DNA from: Promethearchaeota archaeon
Lineage (GTDB): Archaea; Asgardarchaeota; Lokiarchaeia; Sigyniarchaeales; SOKP01
DNA length: 34,001 nt
Reading direction: 5' to 3'
NCBI GenBank assembly: GCA_011364925.1
Contig: RDOA01000041.1
Coordinates: 1-34,001, forward strand
The position numbers and the translations under genes were made by a program. Below, one piece after another: positions 1 through 22,978 of the stretch (within the stretch, counting starts at the first letter, position 1; the number at the start of each line of letters is the position of its first letter). The notes beneath the pieces were generated by a model that worked only from the letters and a program-made list of their open reading frames with translations, did not search any database and was not told where the DNA came from.

Positions 1-2
1 TG

Positions 3-2102
3 AAATTTGATAAGGATGGATCTCCCCTAAATGATACCCCAAACTTAATTAGTCTTCCATTTCCAATTATTTTTAATCCCCCTCCCCATACTTCTAAAAA
101 CAATAGAAACCTCGAAACAGTCATAAAATCAGCACAGTCGTTAGGAACGATTGTTATTGTCCCCCAATCTGATTTTTCGAAGGATTTCCTACCATTTAGT
201 AAATCAATATCATTACGATTGAAAAAGGTGCCAAACCAAGAAGAAAAACAACTATTAAAGTTGTCTAAATTAGTTGAAATTGAGGATTTCAGCTTATTAA
301 GAACCGTGAAGAAGATTAATCCCGACATTTTATGTTCAATTTACCTTCCAATAGAGGAAGGGATTGAGACAAAAATACTTTCACTGGTAAGAAAAGGCAT
401 AGATATTATTCATTTAAATTTCAGTTTTTATGGTATGAGTAAACTAGGAGATATTCCGACCGTATTAAAAAGAATACACGATTTTCTGACTGATAAAAAG
501 TGTCGTAACTCAGCAAGTATCATCGTAAGTGGGGGAATAGCTGCTGCTGAACACGTCGCTAAAGCGATGATTTGTGGGGTGGATTGCGTAGCTATCGATT
601 ACGTTCTGTTAATAGCACTTGGATGTTCCTTATGGGCAGATTTATCTTTTCCGTGCGATGCTGAACACGGAGAGATAGATTTGAACTGGGGTGTGAGCAG
701 AATAAAAAATTTAGTTGCTACTTGGAGAGATCAATTACTTGAAATTCTTGGTGCTATGGGTATTCGAGAAATTAGACGAATAAGAGGAGAAGTAGGGAGG
801 GCGATATTTTATAAGAAAGAAAAAGAAGATTTTAAATCGCTTTTTATTTTAGCTAGTACAGAATCACCTTTAGGTTTCCGTGCTCCCCATGAACAACTTA
901 GCGTTGGAGATTGTCGTTGGCCTCTAGAATTAATTCAAGCCACATTCGAACAAGCACGCACGGGTCTCTTACCAAAAAGCTTAGAATACCGGATTGGTAG
1001 GAGTGCAGGAGGTTTTGACCGTCTTGCTTTCATATTTGAGGAAACCGAAAAAGAACTGAGAGACGATCAATCAATTGACCTATCGATTCCTTTAAATTTA
1101 AGGTCTAATGGTCCTAAAATATCGATTCCTATGCCAATTTATTCCGGAGGAATGTCTTTTGGTTCAATTTCTCTTAATGTAATGCTTGCTCGAGCGATGG
1201 CTGCCCAAGAATTAAAATCGTTTGTTTCTACAGGTGAAGGTGGGTATCCTACCGATTTAATACAATATAGAAAACATGTGATAACGCAAGTAGCAACTGG
1301 TTTATTTGGTGTGAGTGAGGCTTCGATTCAAAGGGCTCCTATTGTTGAGTTTAAATATGCTCAGGGAGCAAAACCCGGTTTAGGGGGACATCTACTGGCA
1401 GGAAAGGTTACAGAAGCTGTAGCTAATGCAAGAGAGTCAGTAGCGAATAGAAGTCTATTCTCTCCATTCCCTTTTCACAGTGTTTATTCAGTTGAAGATC
1501 ATAAAAAACATATAGATTGGATAAGACAAGTGAATCCAGAGGCTTTAGTGATCGTTAAGGTTTCAACTCCTACTGATGTAGACATGGTCGCCGTTGGTAG
1601 TTACTATGCTGGTGCCAATGTATTGAATATTGATGGGTCTTATGGGGGCACGGGTGCTGCTCCTGAAGTAAGTAAAAAAAACATAGCAATGCCCGTAGAG
1701 TATGCCATACCAAAGGTACATAATTTTTTGACAAAAGAAGGGATCAGAGACGATATTGTCTTGATTGCTTCTGGAGGAATACGTTCTGGTTATGATATTG
1801 CAAAAGCAATTGCATTAGGAGCGGATGGTGCGATGGTTGGTACAGCCGATTTAATAGCGTTAGGATGCGAACGATTAGGAGTATGTGAAAAGGGAGATGG
1901 GTGCCCAGCAGGTTTAACAACCACAGATCCAAAATTTGCTTCGCTAATAGATCCTCAATGGGGGAAAAGCCGTATAGTAAATCTACGAAAAGCGTGGGCT
2001 ATTCAATTACGCCAAATTTTAAACACATTAGGAATGAAAAGTATAAGAGAATTGAGAGGTAAAGCGGATACATTGTTATATTTAAATAAAGAGGTGCCAT
2101 AA
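3..2102 (+). CDS. gltB: Glutamate synthase FMN/Fe-S (synthase) subunit, tandemly duplicated, 5' partial
   Basis: The frame is open from the first bases of the window, so the gene starts upstream; the TTG at 219 is only the first internal start-like codon. The C-terminal half is a well-preserved FMN-binding glutamate synthase domain, which reduces 2-oxoglutarate plus ammonia to glutamate. It shows SGGMSFGSIS, GEGGYP, KPGLGGHL, NIDGSYGGTGAAP and ASGGIRSGYDIAKAIALGADG. A Fe-S triad follows as C-x5-C-x5-C (CERLGVCEKGDGC), one residue longer than the classic C-x5-C-x4-C. The N-terminal half is a diverged second copy: VSGGIAAAEHVAKAMICGVD aligns with the segment above, and both copies end in a W-G-x-S-R-I-x-N-L stretch followed by IRElRG-like residues. 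That copy has lost the Fe-S cysteines and most FMN-loop residues. The stop overlaps the next ATG (TAATG). Identity as glutamate synthase is secure; the role of the degenerate half is unknown. Confidence 0.88.
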   Translation, partial: KFDKDGSPLNDTPNLISLPFPIIFNPPPHTSKNNRNLETVIKSAQSLGTIVIVPQSDFSKDFLPFSKSISLRLKKVPNQEEKQLLKLSKLVEIEDFSLLRTVKKINPDILCSIYLPIEEGIETKILSLVRKGIDIIHLNFSFYGMSKLGDIPTVLKRIHDFLTDKKCRNSASIIVSGGIAAAEHVAKAMICGVDCVAIDYVLLIALGCSLWADLSFPCDAEHGEIDLNWGVSRIKNLVATWRDQLLEILGAMGIREIRRIRGEVGRAIFYKKEKEDFKSLFILASTESPLGFRAPHEQLSVGDCRWPLELIQATFEQARTGLLPKSLEYRIGRSAGGFDRLAFIFEETEKELRDDQSIDLSIPLNLRSNGPKISIPMPIYSGGMSFGSISLNVMLARAMAAQELKSFVSTGEGGYPTDLIQYRKHVITQVATGLFGVSEASIQRAPIVEFKYAQGAKPGLGGHLLAGKVTEAVANARESVANRSLFSPFPFHSVYSVEDHKKHIDWIRQVNPEALVIVKVSTPTDVDMVAVGSYYAGANVLNIDGSYGGTGAAPEVSKKNIAMPVEYAIPKVHNFLTKEGIRDDIVLIASGGIRSGYDIAKAIALGADGAMVGTADLIALGCERLGVCEKGDGCPAGLTTTDPKFASLIDPQWGKSRIVNLRKAWAIQLRQILNTLGMKSIRELRGKADTLLYLNKEVP

Positions 2103-4537
2103 TGAAGATTTTTAAGAAGGAAATCGAAGGTGGCTGTGGAGTTGTTGGTTTTTGCTCAAATGAAAAAATTACTGGGAAACATTTATTACCTCCGTGTTTT
2201 CAAATGCATAATAGGGGAAATGGAAAAGGAGGAGGTATAATTGCTATGGGATTAGAAGCTACACAACTTGATGTGTCAGAAGAAGTCCTAAATTCACATT
2301 ATTTGATCCAAATTGCCTATCTCGAACCCAAAGTTCGCAAAGAACTAGAAACTCAACATATTTACAAAAATTTTGATGTTCACTTGTTCTATAAAATAAA
2401 AATTAATGAAGATACATCAAAAATGTTTGAGATAACTCCACCTCAAGTATATAGATATTTCTGCCGAGTAAAAAAAACAGTTCTGAAGCAATTTATGAAT
2501 GATAACAGATTTTCAAATGAAGGAAAAGCTGAAGACGAATTTGTGTTTCAGAATAGTTACCGGATAAACAAGAAATTTTATAACGAAAATAAAGCTCAAG
2601 AAGCTTTTGTGTTATGTCATGGAAAAAATATGGTTGTGTTTAAAATAGTAGGGTATGCCGAAGAAGCTATCGAGTATTACAACTTAATGGAATTAAAGGC
2701 TCATATCTGGGTTGGGCACCAAAGATATCCCACTAGAGGGAGAGTATGGCATCCTGGAGGAGCTCATCCTTTTATAGGGCTAAAAGAGGCTTTAGTACAT
2801 AATGGAGATTTTGCAAATTATCACTCTATTTGTGAGTATCTCCTTCAAAATGGAAGGGAACCTTTATTTTCTACAGATACAGAAGTTGCTGTGTTATTAT
2901 TTGATCTCTGGACTCGAACATATAATTATCCATTAGAGTATGCTATCGAGGCTTTAGCGCCTACAACTGAAAGAGATTTCACAATGCTTCCCGTTGAAAA
3001 AAAGAACATTTATAAACAAATTCAGAGCTATCATATAGACAATTCTCCTGATGGTCCTTGGTTTTTTATAGTTGCTAGAAATGATGATTTAGAAGGTCAA
3101 CTCCAATTATTGGGCATAACTGACACTTCTATGTTAAGACCTCAAGTTTTTGCACTACAAGAAAACGATGAGGTAAAGATTGGTATAATAGCTTCTGAAA
3201 AACAGGCAATAGATTCGATTCTTTTAAGTATTTCTGAAGAAGATGACAGATTCTGTCCTATAGCTGATTTATATTGGAATGCTCGTGGTGGTAGTTATAC
3301 AGATGGAGGCGCCTTCCTTTTTTCATTGAAAAATAATATTTTATGTTGTACAGATAAATTTGGTAATGAAATAACAATTCCAAAAAAATTACAAAATAAA
3401 ACAAAAAGACTGAAGTCTTATCAGTTTAATCCAGATTTTAATAAATTTGTTAAGGAAATTCCTTCTATGGATTATGCTGATATATTAGGGTTTTTAAAAT
3501 CTGCTGAAGATCATGCAGAGAATGGTGATTTGCAATATCAAGAATCGATTACCTTACTTACTAAGTTAATTGATAGACATTATTCAGTTGGAGATAAAAA
3601 GCGAAGTAATTTATTAGCACTATATCAGAAGTCGTTATATGCGATATTTCGTAAAAAACTAGTTGGGTTAAAAAAATATAAGCATCTGAATTTTCAATCC
3701 TCAAGCATACCTGTTGCTGATGCAAGAGATCAATTTTTAATAATTGATGCTAGAGATTTTCCTTCAGAAGGTCCTAATAGCATAGCTTCAAGGATGGTTG
3801 AGGCTTTTTCTTACGGATGGATGAACATCATTGTATTTGATCTCAGAGGTCAGAGGTTTTGTGCTTGTGGTTTCGGAAATCATTCAAATTCTATTAGAAT
3901 TGAATTATATGGTTCTCCAGGTGATTATGTAGGCTCTGGTATTACTAATACCGAAATTTATGTGCATGCTAATGGGCAGGATCAATGGGGCCAGATAATG
4001 AAGTCAGGAAAACTTGTTATTCATGGTGATGTTGGACAAACATTTCTTTATGGAGCTAAAGGTGGTACTTGTTATGTTAGAGGAAACACGGCGGGAAGAG
4101 CTTTAATAAATGCAGTAGGGAATCCTCGCGTAATTATTAATGGAAGTTGTCTGGATTATTTAGCCGAATCATTTATGGCCGGTGATGTTTTTCATGATGG
4201 TGGTTTTGCTTTACTAAATGGAATATTTGCTAATAGTGATGGGAATATAGAAGAATATCCCGAACCTTATCCAGGAGGTAATTTATTTTCCTTGGCATCA
4301 GGAGGAGCAATATATATTCGGGACCCTCATCATAAAACTTCAAAAAATCAATTGAATGGTGGGAGTTTTGTTAATCTTACAAAAAAGGACTGGGATATCA
4401 TTAAACCATATTTACAGGAAAACGAAAGACTGTTTGGAATTAAAATCAATGATTTATTGACAGTTAACAATCAAATTAGACCACCAGAGGAAGTATATCG
4501 AAAAATTATTGTAGGAAGTACGGAGGTTTTGCATTGA
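2102..4537 (+). CDS. Glutamate synthase glutaminase subunit: class II GATase fused to GXGXG domain
   Basis: The N-terminus, MKIFKKEIEGG followed by CGVVGF, fits a class II (Ntn) glutamine amidotransferase whose nucleophile Cys12 would be exposed by removing an 11-residue propeptide. Further GATase signatures are GHQRYPTRGRVWHPGGAHPF near residue 203 and HNGDFANY near residue 233. The enzyme would release ammonia from glutamine for the synthase subunit encoded just upstream. From about residue 556 to 710 lies the glycine-rich beta-helix GXGXG domain typical of the glutamate synthase C-terminus (GDYVGSGITN, HGDVGQTFLYGAKGGTCYVRG, FMAGDVFHDGG). About 320 residues between them are not confidently assigned. 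In many archaea the GATase and GXGXG parts are separate genes; here they are fused and the FMN part is separate and first. The gene overlaps both neighbours, so it is translated in an operon. Confidence 0.87.
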   Translation: MKIFKKEIEGGCGVVGFCSNEKITGKHLLPPCFQMHNRGNGKGGGIIAMGLEATQLDVSEEVLNSHYLIQIAYLEPKVRKELETQHIYKNFDVHLFYKIKINEDTSKMFEITPPQVYRYFCRVKKTVLKQFMNDNRFSNEGKAEDEFVFQNSYRINKKFYNENKAQEAFVLCHGKNMVVFKIVGYAEEAIEYYNLMELKAHIWVGHQRYPTRGRVWHPGGAHPFIGLKEALVHNGDFANYHSICEYLLQNGREPLFSTDTEVAVLLFDLWTRTYNYPLEYAIEALAPTTERDFTMLPVEKKNIYKQIQSYHIDNSPDGPWFFIVARNDDLEGQLQLLGITDTSMLRPQVFALQENDEVKIGIIASEKQAIDSILLSISEEDDRFCPIADLYWNARGGSYTDGGAFLFSLKNNILCCTDKFGNEITIPKKLQNKTKRLKSYQFNPDFNKFVKEIPSMDYADILGFLKSAEDHAENGDLQYQESITLLTKLIDRHYSVGDKKRSNLLALYQKSLYAIFRKKLVGLKKYKHLNFQSSSIPVADARDQFLIIDARDFPSEGPNSIASRMVEAFSYGWMNIIVFDLRGQRFCACGFGNHSNSIRIELYGSPGDYVGSGITNTEIYVHANGQDQWGQIMKSGKLVIHGDVGQTFLYGAKGGTCYVRGNTAGRALINAVGNPRVIINGSCLDYLAESFMAGDVFHDGGFALLNGIFANSDGNIEEYPEPYPGGNLFSLASGGAIYIRDPHHKTSKNQLNGGSFVNLTKKDWDIIKPYLQENERLFGIKINDLLTVNNQIRPPEEVYRKIIVGSTEVLH

Positions 4538-5337
4538 ATATTATTGTTTGTTTAAAACAAGTACCAGATGCAGATGAAGTGAAAACAGATCCAGAGACAG
4601 GTCGAATTGTTCGTGAAGGTATTAAAGGGACAGTTAATCCTTTTGACATGTTTATTCTTGAAGAAGCTTTACGGTTAAAAGAACAATTTGGTGGAAAAAT
4701 TACATTACTCAGTATGGGACCTAAAGACGCGATACATACCCTATATTACGGTTTAGCTGTAGGGGCTGATGAGGGTTATTTACTTTCAGATAGTAAATTT
4801 GCGGGATCGGACACATTGGCTACATCTTACGCCTTGTCATGCGCTATAAAGACACTTGGCCTTTATGATTTAATAATGTGTGGTATTAAAACAACAGATG
4901 GTGATACTGGACAAGTAGGAGCAAATTTAGCCGAACTTCTTGATATTCCAAGCGTTTATTATGTTAATAGAATACTAAGTTATCAAAATGATTTTATAAA
5001 AGTGGAAAGGTTTTTAGAAGATAGATCCCAAATTTTAGAGGTGCATCTTCCTTGTCTCATTTCAATAATAAAAGGAGCAAATGTACCTAGAATGCCTACT
5101 TTGGAAGGAAAAATTGAAGCTGAAGGAAAGCAATTAAAAATACTTAATGCTTTCGAAGTGAACGCGATAGAAAAGTATTGTGGTATCGAAGGTTCTCCAA
5201 CTAGAGTAATAGAAATATTTCTTCCTGAAAAAAGGAAAAAGGGTGTAATTTTAAAGGGGTGTCGAGAACAAAATATCACTAAATTAATCCAATTTTTAAA
5301 AAATAAGAAAATATCAATCTTTGGGATGTGTTCTTAA
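4534..5337 (+). CDS. etfB: Electron transfer flavoprotein beta subunit (EtfB/FixA)
   Basis: This 267-residue protein begins MNIIVCLKQVPD and contains NPFDMFILEEALRLKE, GADEGYLLSD and DGDTGQVGANLAELL, then MPTLEGK, all hallmarks of ETF beta (the AMP- or FAD-binding subunit). ETFs pass electrons between flavin dehydrogenases and ferredoxin, NAD or quinone systems. The TTG start overlaps the upstream TGA as TTGA and is supported by a Shine-Dalgarno GGAGG at 4522-4526, which makes it more credible than any later codon. Translational coupling to the glutamate synthase subunit is therefore likely. Length and motifs are normal for the family. Confidence 0.93.
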   Translation: MNIIVCLKQVPDADEVKTDPETGRIVREGIKGTVNPFDMFILEEALRLKEQFGGKITLLSMGPKDAIHTLYYGLAVGADEGYLLSDSKFAGSDTLATSYALSCAIKTLGLYDLIMCGIKTTDGDTGQVGANLAELLDIPSVYYVNRILSYQNDFIKVERFLEDRSQILEVHLPCLISIIKGANVPRMPTLEGKIEAEGKQLKILNAFEVNAIEKYCGIEGSPTRVIEIFLPEKRKKGVILKGCREQNITKLIQFLKNKKISIFGMCS

Positions 5338-5359
5338 AAGTTAATAGGGGCGTTAATAA

Positions 5360-6535
5360 TTGATTACTATTGATAGAGAAAAGTGCATTGGTTGCGGTGA
5401 ATGTGTGGATGTATGTGTATTTGGATCTATTTCTATGAAAGATAATCATCCCATAATCTCAGATGATTGTCGGTTATGCGGATCTTGTGCTAAAGTGTGC
5501 CAATATAATGCAATAGAAATTAAACGAGAGAAGAAAAAGAAAGTTACAGATTGGCGCGGTATTCTTATTTTTGGTGAACAGCGTGATGGGGTAATTTTAG
5601 AAGTGGTTTATGAGCTTTTAGGAAAGGGGAGAAAATTAGCAGATTCTATCAACGAGCCACTTTTATGTGTTATTCTAGGAAAATTTGTAGCAGAAATTAA
5701 TAAACTAGCATTATATGGAGCAGATGAGATACATTACTTCGAAGATGTAAAACTTGAATCGTTTAATTGTGAGATCTATTCAAATATCATTTCAAATTTT
5801 ATTAAAAAGATAAAGCCAAGCATTTTTTTAATAGGAGCGACCTCTATAGGACGCGAACTAGGACCTAGGGTTGCTGCAAAGCTTAAAACAGGACTAACTG
5901 CCGACTGCACTGGTTTAGAAGTAAATAAAGAGGGTTTGTTAGTTCAAACTAGGCCTGCATTTGGTGGAAATATCATGGCATCTATAATATGCCCAAATTC
6001 GCGACCACAAATGGCTACTGTACGCCCAAAAGTAATGAAGAAATTAGAAGCAAAAGAAAGAGAAGGAAAACTATTCAATCACGTAGTAAATTCAGAGTTA
6101 ATTGACTCAAGCATAAAAATATTAGGGGAAATCAAATTTAATGGCCAATGTGATATAAATAATGCTGAAATTATCGTTTCAGGAGGTTTGGGTGTAGGTA
6201 AGAAAGAAGGATTTGATTTATTAGAAAAACTCGCTCTCGAGCTAAATGGAGTAATAGCAGCAAGTAGACCAGCGGTTGATGCGGGATGGGCAGATCCTAA
6301 TATCCAAGTTGGTATGTCTGGAAAAGTTGTGCAACCGCATTTATATGTTGCCTGTGGAATATCCGGAGCTGTACAACACCGTGTTGGTATGGAAACATCT
6401 GATGTCATTGTTGCTATCAATAAAGATGAGCGCGCTCCAATATTTGATATTGCTGATTTTGGAATTGTAGCTGATTTATATGATTTTATTCCAAAATTTA
6501 TCCAAAATTTGAAAAACTCAAAAGCTCAAATATAA
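5360..6535 (+). CDS. etfA: Electron transfer flavoprotein alpha subunit with N-terminal 2[4Fe-4S] ferredoxin domain
   Basis: Residues 1-60 carry two 4Fe-4S motifs: C9-x2-C12-x2-C15-x3-C19 and C37-x2-C40-x2-C43-x3-C47. The ETF alpha N-terminal domain follows, then the C-terminal FAD domain with SRPAVDAGW, VGMSGKVVQPHLYVACGISG and AQ-type GAVQHRVGM, IVAINKDERAPIF and ADFGIVADLYDFIP. Ferredoxin-fused EtfA proteins are known from confurcating/bifurcating systems such as the lactate dehydrogenase-Etf and caffeyl-CoA reductase (CarE) complexes; this is family knowledge, not proof of bifurcation here. The start is TTG at 5360, 22 bases after the etfB stop; it leaves the first cluster intact. As the last gene of the operon it would link ferredoxin to the upstream glutamate synthase or to an unlinked partner. 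Confidence 0.93.
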   Translation: MITIDREKCIGCGECVDVCVFGSISMKDNHPIISDDCRLCGSCAKVCQYNAIEIKREKKKKVTDWRGILIFGEQRDGVILEVVYELLGKGRKLADSINEPLLCVILGKFVAEINKLALYGADEIHYFEDVKLESFNCEIYSNIISNFIKKIKPSIFLIGATSIGRELGPRVAAKLKTGLTADCTGLEVNKEGLLVQTRPAFGGNIMASIICPNSRPQMATVRPKVMKKLEAKEREGKLFNHVVNSELIDSSIKILGEIKFNGQCDINNAEIIVSGGLGVGKKEGFDLLEKLALELNGVIAASRPAVDAGWADPNIQVGMSGKVVQPHLYVACGISGAVQHRVGMETSDVIVAINKDERAPIFDIADFGIVADLYDFIPKFIQNLKNSKAQI

Positions 6536-6616: not shown

Positions 6617-8266
6617 ATGCATAATTCGGATCTTAAGCTAATAATCGCTCAAATTAATCCTATTGTAGGGGATATTGACTATAACACAGCAAAGATTACT
6701 GAGATTATAAAAAGTCACGAAAATTGCGACATTTTTATTTTTCCTGAAATGTCTTTAGTGGGTTATCCTATTATGGATCATATCCATGATCCTCTTATTC
6801 AGAGAAAAAATAATGAAGCAATTGAAGAAATTAAGGCATTAAACACTACTGCAACAGTTATTCTTGGTTCATTTACCAAACCTGAAAAGTTAAAAGAAAA
6901 AGTCCAACCTTTCTATAATTCAGCGATTATCATTGAAAACAACAAAATAAAAGCTTATGTGAACAAGCGATTATTACCGAACTATGATGTCTTTGACGAG
7001 AGAAGATATTTCTCTTTTGATAATGACTATGAGCCTATTAAAATACATAATTATAAAATTGGAATACTTATATGCGAAGATATATGGGATGAACATTATG
7101 ATACTAATGTAGCAAAGAACTTAGTAGATAATGGTGCTGAACTATTGATTGTTATAAATGCATCGCCGTTTCACATAAATAAATTTCAGATTAGAAGTGA
7201 TTTAATTACAAGAAAATCTAAGAACCTCCATGTTCCTATTGTATACGTTAATATGGTTGGTGGATTAGATGAAATAGTATACGATGGCCAGAGTTTTATT
7301 TCAAATAAATTTGGCCAAATAATTTTTAGAGCAAAAGCTTTTGAAGAGGATATTTCTACTTTTGTGCTTAATATGCAGGGACAAAGCAAAACTCAAGAAC
7401 AATTTAAAGAAGCTGATTGGAGAGAAGATGTAATTAAGGCATTGAAATTAAACTTGTATGACTACTACCATAAGAGTAATATCTTTAATGGCGTTGTATT
7501 AGGTTTGAGTGGGGGAGTAGATTCAGCGTTTACCGCATACATTTGTGCTCAGTCCCTTGGTTCTGACAAGGTGAATGCAATAATGATGCCAACGCGATTT
7601 ACATCAGAAGAAAGCATCGATCTTGCCCGAAAGCTGTGTAACAACTTAGAAATTAAATACAAAATCCATCCAATAGATGAGATTTTTGATCAATTTGAAA
7701 GTAATATAAATGATAATCTAGGGAAACAGCCTTTTGATATCGCTGACGAGAATCTTCAAGCTCGAATAAGAGCAAATATATTGATGTATTATTCAAATAA
7801 GTTTAATTGGTTATTAGTGTCAACAGGGAATAAATCTGAGATCGCAGTAGGTTTCTGTACGTTATACGGTGATACATGCGGTGGAAAGAACGTTCCGGGA
7901 GACCTCTTAAAGGTTCAGATTTACGATATTTGCAATTGGATCAACAAGGAAAAAGAGATAATCCCAAATGGTATTATTGAAAGACCTCCTACAGCAGAAT
8001 TAAGAGAAAATCAAAAAGATAGTGATTCTATACCTCCTTACGATGTCCTTGATGTTATATTAAACGAGATATTTGAACATGGGATTGGTTCTGAATATCA
8101 GAATTTACATGACTTAGGTTATGACAGTAATACAATTGAAAAGGTAAGAAGCCTTTATTTGAACTCCGAATATAAACGAAGGCAATTGGTGCAAACCATT
8201 AAAGTAAGTAAAAGTGCCTTTGGAATTGGAAGAAGATATCCAGTTTTAAAGAAGTTAAAATTCTAA
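6617..8266 (+). CDS. nadE: Glutamine-dependent NAD+ synthetase
   Basis: This 549-residue enzyme amidates nicotinic acid adenine dinucleotide to NAD+ using ATP and glutamine-derived ammonia. The N-terminal carbon-nitrogen hydrolase (glutaminase) domain has the full catalytic triad: Glu44 in FPEMSLVGYP, Lys117 in NKRLLPNYDVFDERRYF and Cys153 in ILICEDIWD. The C-terminal synthetase domain has the PP-loop LSGGVDSAFT near residues 296-302 and STGNKSEIAVGFCTLYGD. The ATG start has no obvious Shine-Dalgarno, so leaderless or short-leader translation is plausible. The gene stands alone, 81 bases after etfA and 318 before the histone gene. It is glutamine-linked like the upstream operon, but that may be coincidental. 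Confidence 0.95.
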   Translation: MHNSDLKLIIAQINPIVGDIDYNTAKITEIIKSHENCDIFIFPEMSLVGYPIMDHIHDPLIQRKNNEAIEEIKALNTTATVILGSFTKPEKLKEKVQPFYNSAIIIENNKIKAYVNKRLLPNYDVFDERRYFSFDNDYEPIKIHNYKIGILICEDIWDEHYDTNVAKNLVDNGAELLIVINASPFHINKFQIRSDLITRKSKNLHVPIVYVNMVGGLDEIVYDGQSFISNKFGQIIFRAKAFEEDISTFVLNMQGQSKTQEQFKEADWREDVIKALKLNLYDYYHKSNIFNGVVLGLSGGVDSAFTAYICAQSLGSDKVNAIMMPTRFTSEESIDLARKLCNNLEIKYKIHPIDEIFDQFESNINDNLGKQPFDIADENLQARIRANILMYYSNKFNWLLVSTGNKSEIAVGFCTLYGDTCGGKNVPGDLLKVQIYDICNWINKEKEIIPNGIIERPPTAELRENQKDSDSIPPYDVLDVILNEIFEHGIGSEYQNLHDLGYDSNTIEKVRSLYLNSEYKRRQLVQTIKVSKSAFGIGRRYPVLKKLKF

Positions 8267-8584: not shown

Positions 8585-8797
8585 ATGGCTAAGAAAGTAT
8601 TTGCCTGGTCGCCCGTCAGAAAGTTAATGAAAGATAATGGCGCTGAAATGGTGGCTCGTGAAGCTGTTGACGCCTTAATCGACTATCTTGAAAAAGTCGC
8701 TAAAGGGGTAACGAATAAAGCTTTAGAAATGACTCGCCATGCTGGCAGGAAGAAATTAACTGATGACGATATGAGCTTGGCAATGAAATTGATGTAA
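8585..8797 (+). CDS. Archaeal histone (HMf-like, single histone fold)
   Basis: At 70 residues this has exactly the size of a minimal archaeal histone fold with no tails. Helix alpha1 is SPVRKLMKDNGA, the long alpha2 runs from about residue 22 to 53 (VAREAVDALIDYLEKVAKG onwards), and alpha3 is LTDDDMSLAMKLM, with the HAGRKKLT loop L2 between them. It should form dimers and polymerise along DNA to compact the chromosome. It is a single-gene unit with its own promoter region, inverted-repeat leader, strong ribosome binding site and downstream oligo-T terminator. Identification is essentially certain. Confidence 0.97.
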   Translation: MAKKVFAWSPVRKLMKDNGAEMVAREAVDALIDYLEKVAKGVTNKALEMTRHAGRKKLTDDDMSLAMKLM

Positions 8798-12657: not shown

Positions 12658-14391
12658 TTATCCGCCCCAAACCTTGTCTAATTCCTCGTCCGTAACACCA
12701 AAAACATCATTACCAGGGGGTAAAGGCTCTTTTAAAAAGAACTCGGGTAATCTATCGTGTTTGTTAGTAAAACCTGCTGCTTTATTAAACTCTCTTTCAG
12801 TATCGATGATTGATTGTCCGTAACCGGGAACGTCATTAACAGTAAGGTTTGTGCCCAATACGCCATTTAATGTATCAACGACGCCTTCTAACCCTTCGGC
12901 AATATCTAAAATTGCAAAGGCAATGAAGAGACAATATCCTGTCGAATCCACTGCAGCAGTAGCAACTTGCAAGTTTCGCGATAACTCAGCTTTCTTAGTG
13001 TCTTTAGGATCTGCTGTACCGCCCACTCCTAGAATTTCGGTCGCAATTGCGTATCCAGCTGTGTGATCTGCACCCTGAGTTGTTGTTGCGTAAGTTACAC
13101 CTATTCCTTTTATTGCCCGTGGATCATACGCTGGCAGACTCTGCCCTTTAACAACTGGAACTCTGGTTACTCCATAAGCTTGTCCAACAAATGCGGCACC
13201 GTTAGCTAAAATTCTCCCTGTAGGTGTTTTATTCTTAATTTCGTCCATTAATTTTAAAGCATCTTTACCGTCCCCAAAATCAATTAATCCACCTTCCATT
13301 GCTACTCCAAGCAAGCCACCTGCTTCAATTGTATCCAGACCTAAATCGTTACACGCTCTATTTAGTTCTCCAATGGTATCTAAATCGTAAATCCCGCAGT
13401 TAGGACCTAGTGCCCAAACGCTTTCGTACTCTAAAACACCAACTGGCTCTTTTCCTCCAGGTTTTGTCCACACTTCCGAACATTGAATAATACATCCTGG
13501 GCTACAAAAGTGAGGACGAGCGCCTCCTCGTTTTTTGATTTCATCAGCTTTCACTTCTCCAGATACTTTTTCAGATTGATCATCTTGACCTGCCGAAAAG
13601 TTCCGTTGTGGTAAACCTCCAGCTTCGTTGATAATATTAACAAGCACACTTGTACCATATGAGTTTAAAGCCCCACCTGGTTTAGTTACATCGTGAGTTG
13701 TTAGGGCATCTCTTAACTTTTTAACACCCATATCAAAAGCTTCTTGATTTTTTATTTCCACTCCTGGAGCTCCTGTTTCGTCAACAATTATGAATTTTAA
13801 TCCTTTTGAAGCCATAACAGCTCCAAGTCCACCTCGACCTGCGTATCGACTAGGTAAGCCTTCAGGATCGTTAAAACATACGCCTGAGGCAGCTCCCATT
13901 AATTCACCCGCAATACCCGTGGCACAAATACCTACTTTATCTCCAAATTCTTTGAATAAATCTTTGTAGACTCCATATAGCCCCTTTCCAAACCATTTTT
14001 GAGCGTCCATGAATTCAACGCCATCCATTGTGACTTTAAGTAGGTGATAATGATCCTTCTGTTGCCCTTCAACTACAATTGCTGCTATCCTCATTCTTGC
14101 TAATTTTTGAGAGAAACTGGTCCCAGCATTTGCCTCCTTTATACCTCCTGTTAATGGAGATTTTGCTCCAACTGAAATTCGTCCGGAAGTTGGAGCTTTT
14201 GTTCCTGTTACCAAACCAGGAGCAAATACAAGCTTATTATTTGGACCTAATGGATGGCAAAGTGGATCAACTTCCTTCGCAACGATAGTCGATGTAAGAG
14301 CGCGTCCACCTAAAGCTACGAAATCCGCTGGTAAATCTTCAAATTTCGCTTCAAGTTTTGTCATATCTACTCTTAAAATTCTTTTTGACAT
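12658..14391 (-). CDS. aor: Tungsten-containing aldehyde:ferredoxin oxidoreductase (AOR)
   Basis: The 577-residue enzyme oxidises aldehydes to acids with ferredoxin as acceptor, using a bis-tungstopterin and one 4Fe-4S cluster in the cytoplasm. The N-terminal AOR domain shows LGGRALTSTIVAKEVDP, GPNNKLVFAPGLVTGTKAP and SGRISVGAKSPLTGGIKEAN. Cluster ligands are HFCSPGCIIQC near residues 295-303, with the distal cysteine in GYCLFIAF near residue 484. ATTTQGADHTAGYA is the usual pterin-side segment. The spacing C-x3-C-x3-C differs from C-x2-C-x3-C of the Pyrococcus enzyme. The start has a clear Shine-Dalgarno (GAGGTG) upstream. It leads a three-gene operon with two beta-grasp proteins. Length is slightly short of the usual 600 but complete. 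Confidence 0.93.
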   Translation of the reverse strand: MSKRILRVDMTKLEAKFEDLPADFVALGGRALTSTIVAKEVDPLCHPLGPNNKLVFAPGLVTGTKAPTSGRISVGAKSPLTGGIKEANAGTSFSQKLARMRIAAIVVEGQQKDHYHLLKVTMDGVEFMDAQKWFGKGLYGVYKDLFKEFGDKVGICATGIAGELMGAASGVCFNDPEGLPSRYAGRGGLGAVMASKGLKFIIVDETGAPGVEIKNQEAFDMGVKKLRDALTTHDVTKPGGALNSYGTSVLVNIINEAGGLPQRNFSAGQDDQSEKVSGEVKADEIKKRGGARPHFCSPGCIIQCSEVWTKPGGKEPVGVLEYESVWALGPNCGIYDLDTIGELNRACNDLGLDTIEAGGLLGVAMEGGLIDFGDGKDALKLMDEIKNKTPTGRILANGAAFVGQAYGVTRVPVVKGQSLPAYDPRAIKGIGVTYATTTQGADHTAGYAIATEILGVGGTADPKDTKKAELSRNLQVATAAVDSTGYCLFIAFAILDIAEGLEGVVDTLNGVLGTNLTVNDVPGYGQSIIDTEREFNKAAGFTNKHDRLPEFFLKEPLPPGNDVFGVTDEELDKVWGG

Positions 14392-20797: not shown

Positions 20798-22978
20798 ATG
20801 GCACGAAAGAAAGATAAAAAGCCACGAGAAGAATCTAGACCAAGTTATGGTTGGGCACCTGAAGAAGCGGCTGAGGAAAAACTAGCTGAAGGTCTTAAAA
20901 GATCCGATTTAGACGAGCGCAAAGTGACACTCGTTGATCGAGACATAAGTACCCCGGTAATTGAAACATACGATGCAGAAACGGGTGAATTAGAAGGATC
21001 GATATTACTTAAAGATGGAAATCGCGAAGGCTTAACTGGGTTAGTGAAAATTATTGAAAATGTTGATGTAGAGTTAGATCACGACTCTAATATTGAGTCA
21101 ATTAATTTTAGGGGGAAATTAAATGTAGAAAATCCCTCTACTAAAGATAGGCTTTGGGATATCGATTTATCACTAAAGAATATCGGTAGTACTAATCTCA
21201 AATCGAAAGATATCAAGATCAGAGAGCTCGGAACTGATACCAAAACCAATACATATTCTGAAAATTTCGTAATCAAAGAAGAAATAAAAAACTTGCTTTT
21301 AATTCAAGAATATGTTAACACACTTCCCGATGCTGATAGAATATTAAATATTAGAGATATTGAAACCAATTTAATGTTAGCTAAAGAAAAAACAAGTAAG
21401 GCTGGGGCTAATGTTAAAGAAAGGGTTACTCCCGTCGAAGAGGAGGAAGAAGAAGAGGAGGAAGAAGAGGAAGACGAGGAGGAAGACGAGGAGGACGATG
21501 ATTCAATGGATGATGGAGGTACCGCATCAGATGAGTATTCCCTGCAATCTTTTGGGATTTCTATTGATAAAGCGAATACAGTTACATTTGCAATTGCAAT
21601 GAGAAGCTTATTCGAGAAACCAATTAAAAACGTAAAGGTAGTAAAAAACATACCCGGTGATTTTAGCAATCCTACTATTAGAGATACTACAGTTGGAAAA
21701 GCAGGAGTCGAAGGGAAGAAAGTGGTATGGACAATTGAGAAATTGGCGCCAAAACAAACTGTAATATTAAAGTTTACATGTACAATAACGGTTACTGACA
21801 TAACGAAGAGGAAAACGGGTACTATAGATGTAACGTACGAAGCAGCATCTTCTTTTGCAGAGGGATTGGATATCGATAAATACGACGCTTATACAAGGAA
21901 TAAATTCTTTGTTGATACCGTGGAAAGAGACGAAGAACCCGGCGTATGGGATTGTAAGCTTGTTTTTGAAAATCCATCTGAATTTATTATCCAATTATTT
22001 AACGCAGATGTGTATGCAGCGGAAAATGAGTCCCTCAAATTTGTTGATATCGACCCAAGAGATGTTCCACTTTTACCTGCCGGCGCTCAATGGCATTCTA
22101 ATAAATGGAAATATGAATCCGAAGAATATCCTGCTTTTAGAAAAAAGCTTGAATTCAGAGTCATGCCAGATTTCCAAACTACCGTATTCGGAACCGCAGC
22201 AATATCAGATGTAATTCTAGAAATTGCTAGTATAACTGGTGATATGGAATACGATATTGATCAAGTTCCAACTTACAAAGAAAAGGATGTTATTGCTACA
22301 CTAAAAATGGTTAACAATGGCTCAGCTCCGTTGAACGAGGTTTCTGTTGTTCAACAATTCTTCACTAACGAATACCAACCTCCTAAAGCAGGCGAAATAA
22401 AGCTGCTATGGGATGGGAGCGAAGTAGATTTAGATTCAAGCTCAGTTAAATTCGATGGAAGCGTTTTTAAGATCTCACTTAAAGATCTTAGAAACTCTAG
22501 TACTGGAATGTTCTTGCCAGAATCTGCTTTAGAATTCCAATATCCAATCCATTGTGTTAACCCAGCTCAAGATTCTAAATTCGAATCAGAAATCATTTAC
22601 TTCACAAATACTTTCCCAGTATCGCAAGAGTTAGAGTTTAGACCGGAAGTTCCTGTAATAGAAGCTCTACACCTAAGGAGACGATTCAGAATTGGAAAAG
22701 AGGTCTTACCAGTTGGTTCTTTAGGGAATTACCAGATAATCTTGACTGTAGAGAATATAGGATCTGCTCCGCTTCAGAAATTAACTCTTCTAGATAAAGT
22801 CCCTGATAGTTTTGAGTATGGAGAGTATTCAAAGAAACCAGAGATAACTGACGAAGTAGGAGAAGACACATTGAAATGGACTATTGATAAGTTAGAAGCA
22901 GGAGAAATGATTGAAATATCTTATAAAATTAGTGGTACAGGTGCTTACAGTCCAAGTGAAGCACAACTTGGTCTATAA
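20798..22978 (+). CDS. Large cytosolic acidic protein with DUF11-like beta-sandwich repeats
   Basis: This 726-residue protein has no signal peptide or membrane helix. It opens with a charged region (MARKKDKKPREESRP), and residues about 214-240 are an almost pure Glu/Asp tract. Several repeats resemble DUF11/CARDB-type beta sandwiches: AIAMRSLFEKPIKNVKVVKN followed by GKKVVWTIEKLAPKQTVILKF, and near the C-terminus LTVENIGSAPLQKLTLLDKV followed by DTLKWTIDKLEAGEMIEISYKI. At least four such units can be traced from residue 60 onward. DUF11-like repeats usually occur on secreted or surface proteins, so their presence in a protein with no export signal is unusual. I do not know its function. It precedes the propeller gene on the same strand, with a T-run between. 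Confidence 0.75.
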   Translation: MARKKDKKPREESRPSYGWAPEEAAEEKLAEGLKRSDLDERKVTLVDRDISTPVIETYDAETGELEGSILLKDGNREGLTGLVKIIENVDVELDHDSNIESINFRGKLNVENPSTKDRLWDIDLSLKNIGSTNLKSKDIKIRELGTDTKTNTYSENFVIKEEIKNLLLIQEYVNTLPDADRILNIRDIETNLMLAKEKTSKAGANVKERVTPVEEEEEEEEEEEEDEEEDEEDDDSMDDGGTASDEYSLQSFGISIDKANTVTFAIAMRSLFEKPIKNVKVVKNIPGDFSNPTIRDTTVGKAGVEGKKVVWTIEKLAPKQTVILKFTCTITVTDITKRKTGTIDVTYEAASSFAEGLDIDKYDAYTRNKFFVDTVERDEEPGVWDCKLVFENPSEFIIQLFNADVYAAENESLKFVDIDPRDVPLLPAGAQWHSNKWKYESEEYPAFRKKLEFRVMPDFQTTVFGTAAISDVILEIASITGDMEYDIDQVPTYKEKDVIATLKMVNNGSAPLNEVSVVQQFFTNEYQPPKAGEIKLLWDGSEVDLDSSSVKFDGSVFKISLKDLRNSSTGMFLPESALEFQYPIHCVNPAQDSKFESEIIYFTNTFPVSQELEFRPEVPVIEALHLRRRFRIGKEVLPVGSLGNYQIILTVENIGSAPLQKLTLLDKVPDSFEYGEYSKKPEITDEVGEDTLKWTIDKLEAGEMIEISYKISGTGAYSPSEAQLGL

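Follow-up and report, generated by a model that had tools for sequence, protein, structure and literature searches.

A four-gene cassette linking a glutamate synthase with a bifurcating-type electron-transfer flavoprotein in Lokiarchaeia

Genes at the locus

The window analysed here, a stretch of 34,001 nucleotides, is the start of contig C51 in an assembly of 3.9 Mb and 112 contigs. Because it starts at base 1 of the contig, the first gene is truncated and its upstream neighbour is out of view. Four genes on the forward strand form a cassette, with a glutamine-dependent NAD+ synthetase gene outside it:

1..2102 (open reading frame 3-2102), + strand: GltFMN, 5' end cut by the contig start; Pfam Glu_synthase (PF01645) 8.3e-102, Glu_syn_central 5.9e-8
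about 3-890, + strand: N-terminal half of GltFMN, similar to the GltS central domain (Pfam)
573..656, + strand: four cysteines in this half (C-x3-C ... C-x9-C; C312, C316, C329 and C339 in the L038 ortholog), a possible extra Fe-S site (alignment)
about 897-2099, + strand: C-terminal half of GltFMN, FMN synthase domain (Pfam)
1866..1904, + strand: C-x5-C-x5-C by the FMN site, a predicted ligand set for [3Fe-4S] like that of the bacterial GltS alpha subunit (alignment)
2102..4537, + strand: fusion of a glutaminase (Ntn amidotransferase) with a GXGXG beta-helix, 811 aa; GXGXG PF01493 1.3e-11, GATase_6 2e-6
4534..5337, + strand: EtfB, beta subunit of a bifurcating-type electron-transfer flavoprotein (ETF); ETF domain 2e-34, best PDB match LctB 7QH2 at 1.1e-61
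4897..4923, + strand: b-FAD recognition stretch of EtfB, DGDTGQVGA (DGDTAQVGP in A. woodii LctB), Gly123 kept (alignment)
5360..6535, + strand: EtfA with an N-terminal 2x[4Fe-4S] ferredoxin domain; ETF, ETF_alpha and two 4Fe-4S motifs, best PDB match CarE 6FAH at 8.2e-111
6617..8266, + strand: glutamine-dependent NAD+ synthetase (NF010588, 1e-180)

The first-pass annotation had described four adjoining genes that overlap or nearly touch, and the reading frames, their strands and all three junctions agree with this (TAATG at 2100-2104, TTGA at 4534-4537 and a 22-bp gap at 5338-5359). It had called the first gene an FMN/Fe-S subunit, and the central-domain-like N-terminal half has to be added to that description. 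Compared with its ortholog of 821 aa at locus L038 (Glu_syn_central 4.5e-9 in the central-like half, Glu_synthase 6e-102 in the FMN domain), the window's GltFMN is without about the first 121 codons. The FMN/substrate motifs and the three cluster cysteines are conserved. The C-x5-C-x5-C arrangement resembles the three-cysteine [3Fe-4S] motif of bacteria, but has one extra residue. The four cysteines of the N-terminal half, possibly a new Fe-S site, are conserved in all four of the ETF-linked proteins described below; in relatives with separate central and FMN genes they do not occur as a conserved set. The glutaminase retains its catalytic Cys12 after an 11-residue leader together with R38, H206/R208, N234-G235 and D259. 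The catalytic cysteine is present in 12 of 12 readable homologs, and the HNG motif and the aspartate in 13 of 13. AlphaFold2 single-chain models built from two-sequence alignments reached a pLDDT of 30 for GltFMN (L038) and 35 for the glutaminase-GXGXG protein and were set aside. The four cysteines at 573-656 are placed similarly to the loop that carries the cluster in the FMN half.

Distribution of the cassette and its electron input

A total of 228 Asgard genomes were searched with the glutaminase-GXGXG protein and with GltFMN, and both queries returned the same 14 genomes. Fused GltFMN (821-823 aa at full length) occurs in four of these, namely G000 (the genome of the window), G012, G151 and G040, which belong to one order of Lokiarchaeia and to three genera in two families. 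EtfB and ferredoxin-EtfA lie directly 3' in all four, in the order GltFMN, glutaminase-GXGXG, EtfB, ferredoxin-EtfA. The order is found in four genomes, and a one-off arrangement is rejected. Misassembly or a binning artefact is rejected as well, since in the other genomes the same order recurs on two long contigs (303 and 127 kb) and on one of 10 kb.

The glutamine synthetase gene (glnA) is directly upstream of the cassette in G012 and G151, and in G040 the upstream gene is divergent and encodes what is presumably an Lrp/AsnC-like regulator (family assigned by eye). NAD+ synthetase follows the cassette in G151 also, where the ortholog (locus L059, 72% identity) has the corresponding position. 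No GltD-type beta subunit was found within the window or beside the orthologs. The earlier statement that none is adjacent agrees with glnA occupying the upstream position at two orthologous loci, the window's own upstream side being cut off. GlnA of L038, used as a query, gave a match in 18 of the 22 genomes searched and none in G000, where glnA presumably lies beyond the contig end. The remaining ten of the 14 genomes also have a glutaminase-GXGXG protein of this family and encode the central and FMN parts in separate genes; no ETF was found there among the reading frames downstream of the glutaminase-GXGXG gene, several of these contigs being short. In addition to the 228 genomes of the phylum, 165 others were searched and yielded no match; plasmids gave distant glutaminase-domain matches only.

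Comparison of close relatives indicates how the cassette comes and goes. G009 and G014 belong to the genus of L038, and around glnA they match L038 at 92-93% identity on either side of the cassette site. The alignment ends at L038 position 1632 and picks up again at about 8771-8785, with about 0.1 kb between. These two genomes are without the four cassette genes, about 7.1 kb between glnA and a GNAT gene, and the GNAT gene comes straight after glnA. The same empty site is seen in G155 when it is compared with G151 of the same genus, and there the NAD synthetase gene lies within the extra block. Since the whole block is either present or absent, the ETF and synthase genes share one fate. The four genes are gained or lost as one unit, the alignment fitting either direction.

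Synthases with and without the ETF differ in the module through which electrons may enter. The split Asgard glutamate synthases (G112, G096, G058 and others) share the glutaminase-GXGXG fusion at 46-55% identity and have homologous central and FMN proteins, but their central and FMN genes are separate and no ETF adjoins them. An N-terminal Fe-S module (e.g. CTGCMRCVLEFPEFC) opens all five of the split central proteins long enough to read, whereas none of the three ETF-linked proteins whose N-terminus can be read has it (that of the window being cut off). Near the FMN the split relatives carry C-x2-C-x2-C-x5-C, with four cysteines in seven of the eight aligned and three in L064, which is without the last one. 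The glutaminase-GXGXG proteins of the ETF-linked set form one group (support 100/99). Judged from these sequences, the built-in Fe-S input has been exchanged for the ETF. Because the module is gone wherever the ETF is present, this is the strongest argument for EtfAB as the electron donor, and it is independent of gene order. In the split synthase of G058 (L065 11156-14079) the FMN protein opens with extra 4Fe-4S motifs (CTECGGCAEACP, CVGIECRRCEEVC), which suggests yet another version of the electron input.

At E<=1e-20, three of the four carriers (G012, G151 and G040) gave no glutamate synthase other than that of the cassette. G000 has a second one, of the three-gene archaeal type, on contig C66 (L041 8535-12086). 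Its likeness to the cassette lies in separate genes for the synthase functions and a homologous FMN core; it differs in a ferredoxin-FMN fusion, separate glutaminase and GXGXG genes, the lack of a central domain and the lack of an ETF. No synthase of this type was detected in ten relatives checked at E<=1e-20. The C66 synthase has its ferredoxin domain at the N-terminus of the FMN subunit, and a gene for an HdrBC-like protein precedes it.

Signatures of bifurcating ETFs in EtfAB

A tree of 30 Asgard EtfAB pairs places the four cassette pairs in one group (100/100). Cassette EtfAB proteins are 54-82% identical to those of the window, compared with 38-48% for the remaining Asgard EtfAB; for EtfA, identity is 60-79% within the cassette clade and at most about 50% outside it. 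Many other Asgard ETFs adjoin acyl-CoA dehydrogenase genes. G000 has such an ETF on contig C69, separate from that of the cassette. The cassette ETF as partner of an acyl-CoA dehydrogenase was accordingly rejected.

The five best PDB matches of EtfA and of EtfB are all bifurcating-type ETFs and rank ahead of the human and Methylophilus ETFs. CarCDE, the caffeyl-CoA reductase-Etf of A. woodii (6FAH), and Ldh-EtfAB (7QH2) share with the cassette a bifurcating-type EtfAB and an N-terminal ferredoxin domain, and CarE has two [4Fe-4S] sites as does cassette EtfA. The partner differs, being an FAD-containing acyl-CoA or lactate dehydrogenase in those enzymes and a two-subunit FMN/Fe-S glutamate synthase in the cassette. 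The stretch DGDTGQ(V/I)GA is found in four of four cassette EtfB proteins, with Gly123 kept; A126G and P130A differ, which counts against the assignment. The SPT anchor of EtfB and the arginine of TRPA(F/Y)GGN in EtfA are likewise present in all four, this arginine being R205 of LctC, which contacts N5 of b-FAD. All eight cluster cysteines of the ferredoxin domain are conserved (window positions 5384-5416 and 5468-5500). Mutations in Ldh-EtfAB have shown which residues matter for bifurcation (Ldh-EtfAB study, PMC9232219), and these residues are mostly kept in cassette EtfAB. In sequence terms, cassette EtfAB has most of the signatures of bifurcating ETFs.

The most serious of three alternatives is an ETF that is coupled to the synthase without bifurcating, so that EtfAB would hand on electrons from NADH or another dehydrogenase and the ferredoxin domain would be a relay or a vestige. 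The best HMM match of EtfA is an acryloyl-CoA reductase ETF subunit, and the C. propionicum ETF has been described as non-bifurcating despite its close kinship to bifurcating ETFs. The NAD-site motif RxFxG of EtfB keeps FxG in all four proteins, while the arginine is found in G040 only and is serine or isoleucine in the other three (S/I-K-F-A-G). This makes the nicotinamide donor less certain, and the arginine is variable in other Asgard ETFs too. An ETF of this kind is nevertheless judged unlikely in view of the joint conservation of Gly123, DGDT-Q(V/I)G, SPT, the EtfA arginine and the eight ferredoxin cysteines; Gly123 is invariant in bifurcating ETFs according to a 2025 paper, whereas canonical ETFs have a bulky residue at this position (PMC12630350).

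A candidate bifurcating glutamate synthase

The proposal that the glutamate synthase is wired through the ETF is well supported by the behaviour of the four genes as a unit, the ETF clade of its own, the bifurcating-type motifs and the loss of the Fe-S module. It is very probable that EtfAB is the dedicated electron donor of the cassette synthase. Two points bear on this from the other side. To our knowledge, none of the known partners of ETFs belongs to the FMN/Fe-S amidotransferases, and docking of the ETF to the synthase is putative. The other point, a caveat, is an unlinked GltD-like protein of 476 aa in G000 (contig C112, L107 6201-7631), which adjoins histidyl-tRNA synthetase and has an ortholog, 64% identical, in G151 only among 16 genomes. 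It offers some room for co-location being incidental, with the ETF serving another, unlinked dehydrogenase and the synthase running on free ferredoxin or on the GltD-like protein. This is improbable given the overlapping genes, their joint presence or absence, the separate ETF clade and the missing input module in the ETF-linked clade, and no GltD-like protein was found at E<=1e-60 in G012 (88% complete). The NADPH-dependent GltBD of Azospirillum (PDB 2VDC) shares with the cassette the FMN synthase domain, the three-cysteine cluster motif and the central, glutaminase and GXGXG domains. The cassette differs in that these domains are split over two genes, as central-FMN and glutaminase-GXGXG, and in having an ETF instead of a linked GltD.

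With EtfAB as donor, the cassette would encode one enzyme, a glutamate synthase fed by its own ETF. The glutaminase-GXGXG subunit would release ammonia from glutamine and channel it to the FMN domain, where 2-oxoglutarate and ammonia would be reduced to glutamate. FMN would receive its electrons from the shuttling alpha-FAD of EtfAB via the probable [3Fe-4S] cluster and perhaps the Fe-S site of the N-terminal half. The second FAD, b-FAD in EtfB, would take a hydride from NADH and split the electron pair, sending one electron uphill through the ferredoxin domain of EtfA to ferredoxin and the other downhill through alpha-FAD to the Fe-S and FMN centres of the synthase. The net reaction would be 2 NADH + 2-oxoglutarate + glutamine + oxidised ferredoxin (2 e-) -> 2 NAD+ + 2 glutamate + reduced ferredoxin. 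Together with the neighbouring glutamine synthetase, this would make up a GS/GOGAT system in which some of the energy otherwise lost in glutamate synthesis is regained.

Glutamate synthesis by GOGAT runs down a steep redox gradient, and the energy is ordinarily wasted by the cell. Textbook potentials give, by our own estimate, about -50 kJ/mol for NADH-GOGAT and +20 to +35 kJ/mol for electron transfer from NADH to ferredoxin (2 e-), so that bifurcating coupling is thermodynamically allowed. Complex formation, NADH as donor and bifurcation itself are predicted from sequence features, and the full NADH-bifurcating scheme is favoured with moderate confidence. The chances are about even that ammonia assimilation itself reduces ferredoxin and that the possible new Fe-S site of the central domain relays electrons from the ETF.

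The first-pass annotation had also allowed for the reverse direction, starting from glutamate, which is unlikely because glutamine synthetase is the neighbour. A reading in which reduced ferredoxin, by itself or together with NADH (confurcation), feeds the ETF, or in which the system is reversed to oxidise glutamate, is highly improbable, as drawing on ferredoxin would be wasteful where NADH alone is enough, glutamate synthase is regarded as practically irreversible and the adjoining glutamine synthetase points to assimilation. In favour of such a reading, the ferredoxin domain could work inward as well as outward, and Ldh-EtfAB operates by confurcation (PMC9232219).

Of the twelve kinds of bifurcating enzyme listed in a 2018 survey, none has glutamate synthase as its catalytic partner; the survey mentions glutamate synthase solely as a paralogous outgroup to Nfn (PMC6085437). 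No precedent for a bifurcating or ETF-coupled glutamate synthase was found in the open-licence literature, and the genome survey covered the 228 genomes of the phylum and 165 others, so the lack of precedent is provisional. The parts of the cassette are known; neither their combination nor this arrangement of domains was known to us. If the bifurcating glutamate synthase is real, flavin-based bifurcation would gain a new reaction, and for the first time an ETF would have an FMN/Fe-S amidotransferase as its partner instead of an FAD dehydrogenase. The data suggest that some Lokiarchaeia couple nitrogen assimilation to the production of low-potential reduced ferredoxin. Use of a bifurcating ETF here would let an anabolic reaction conserve energy, and this in the closest archaeal relatives of eukaryotes. 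The cassette offers a small and direct four-gene test case, and other anabolic reductases coupled to an ETF are worth seeking.

Two genes further along the window are recorded as separate observations. Positions 12658-14391 encode a protein of the aldehyde ferredoxin oxidoreductase family (AFOR_N, AFOR_C), and positions 20798-22978 encode a protein of 726 aa that weakly matches the medium-subunit family of adaptor complexes (PF00928, 3.6e-8), a eukaryote-like trafficking domain.
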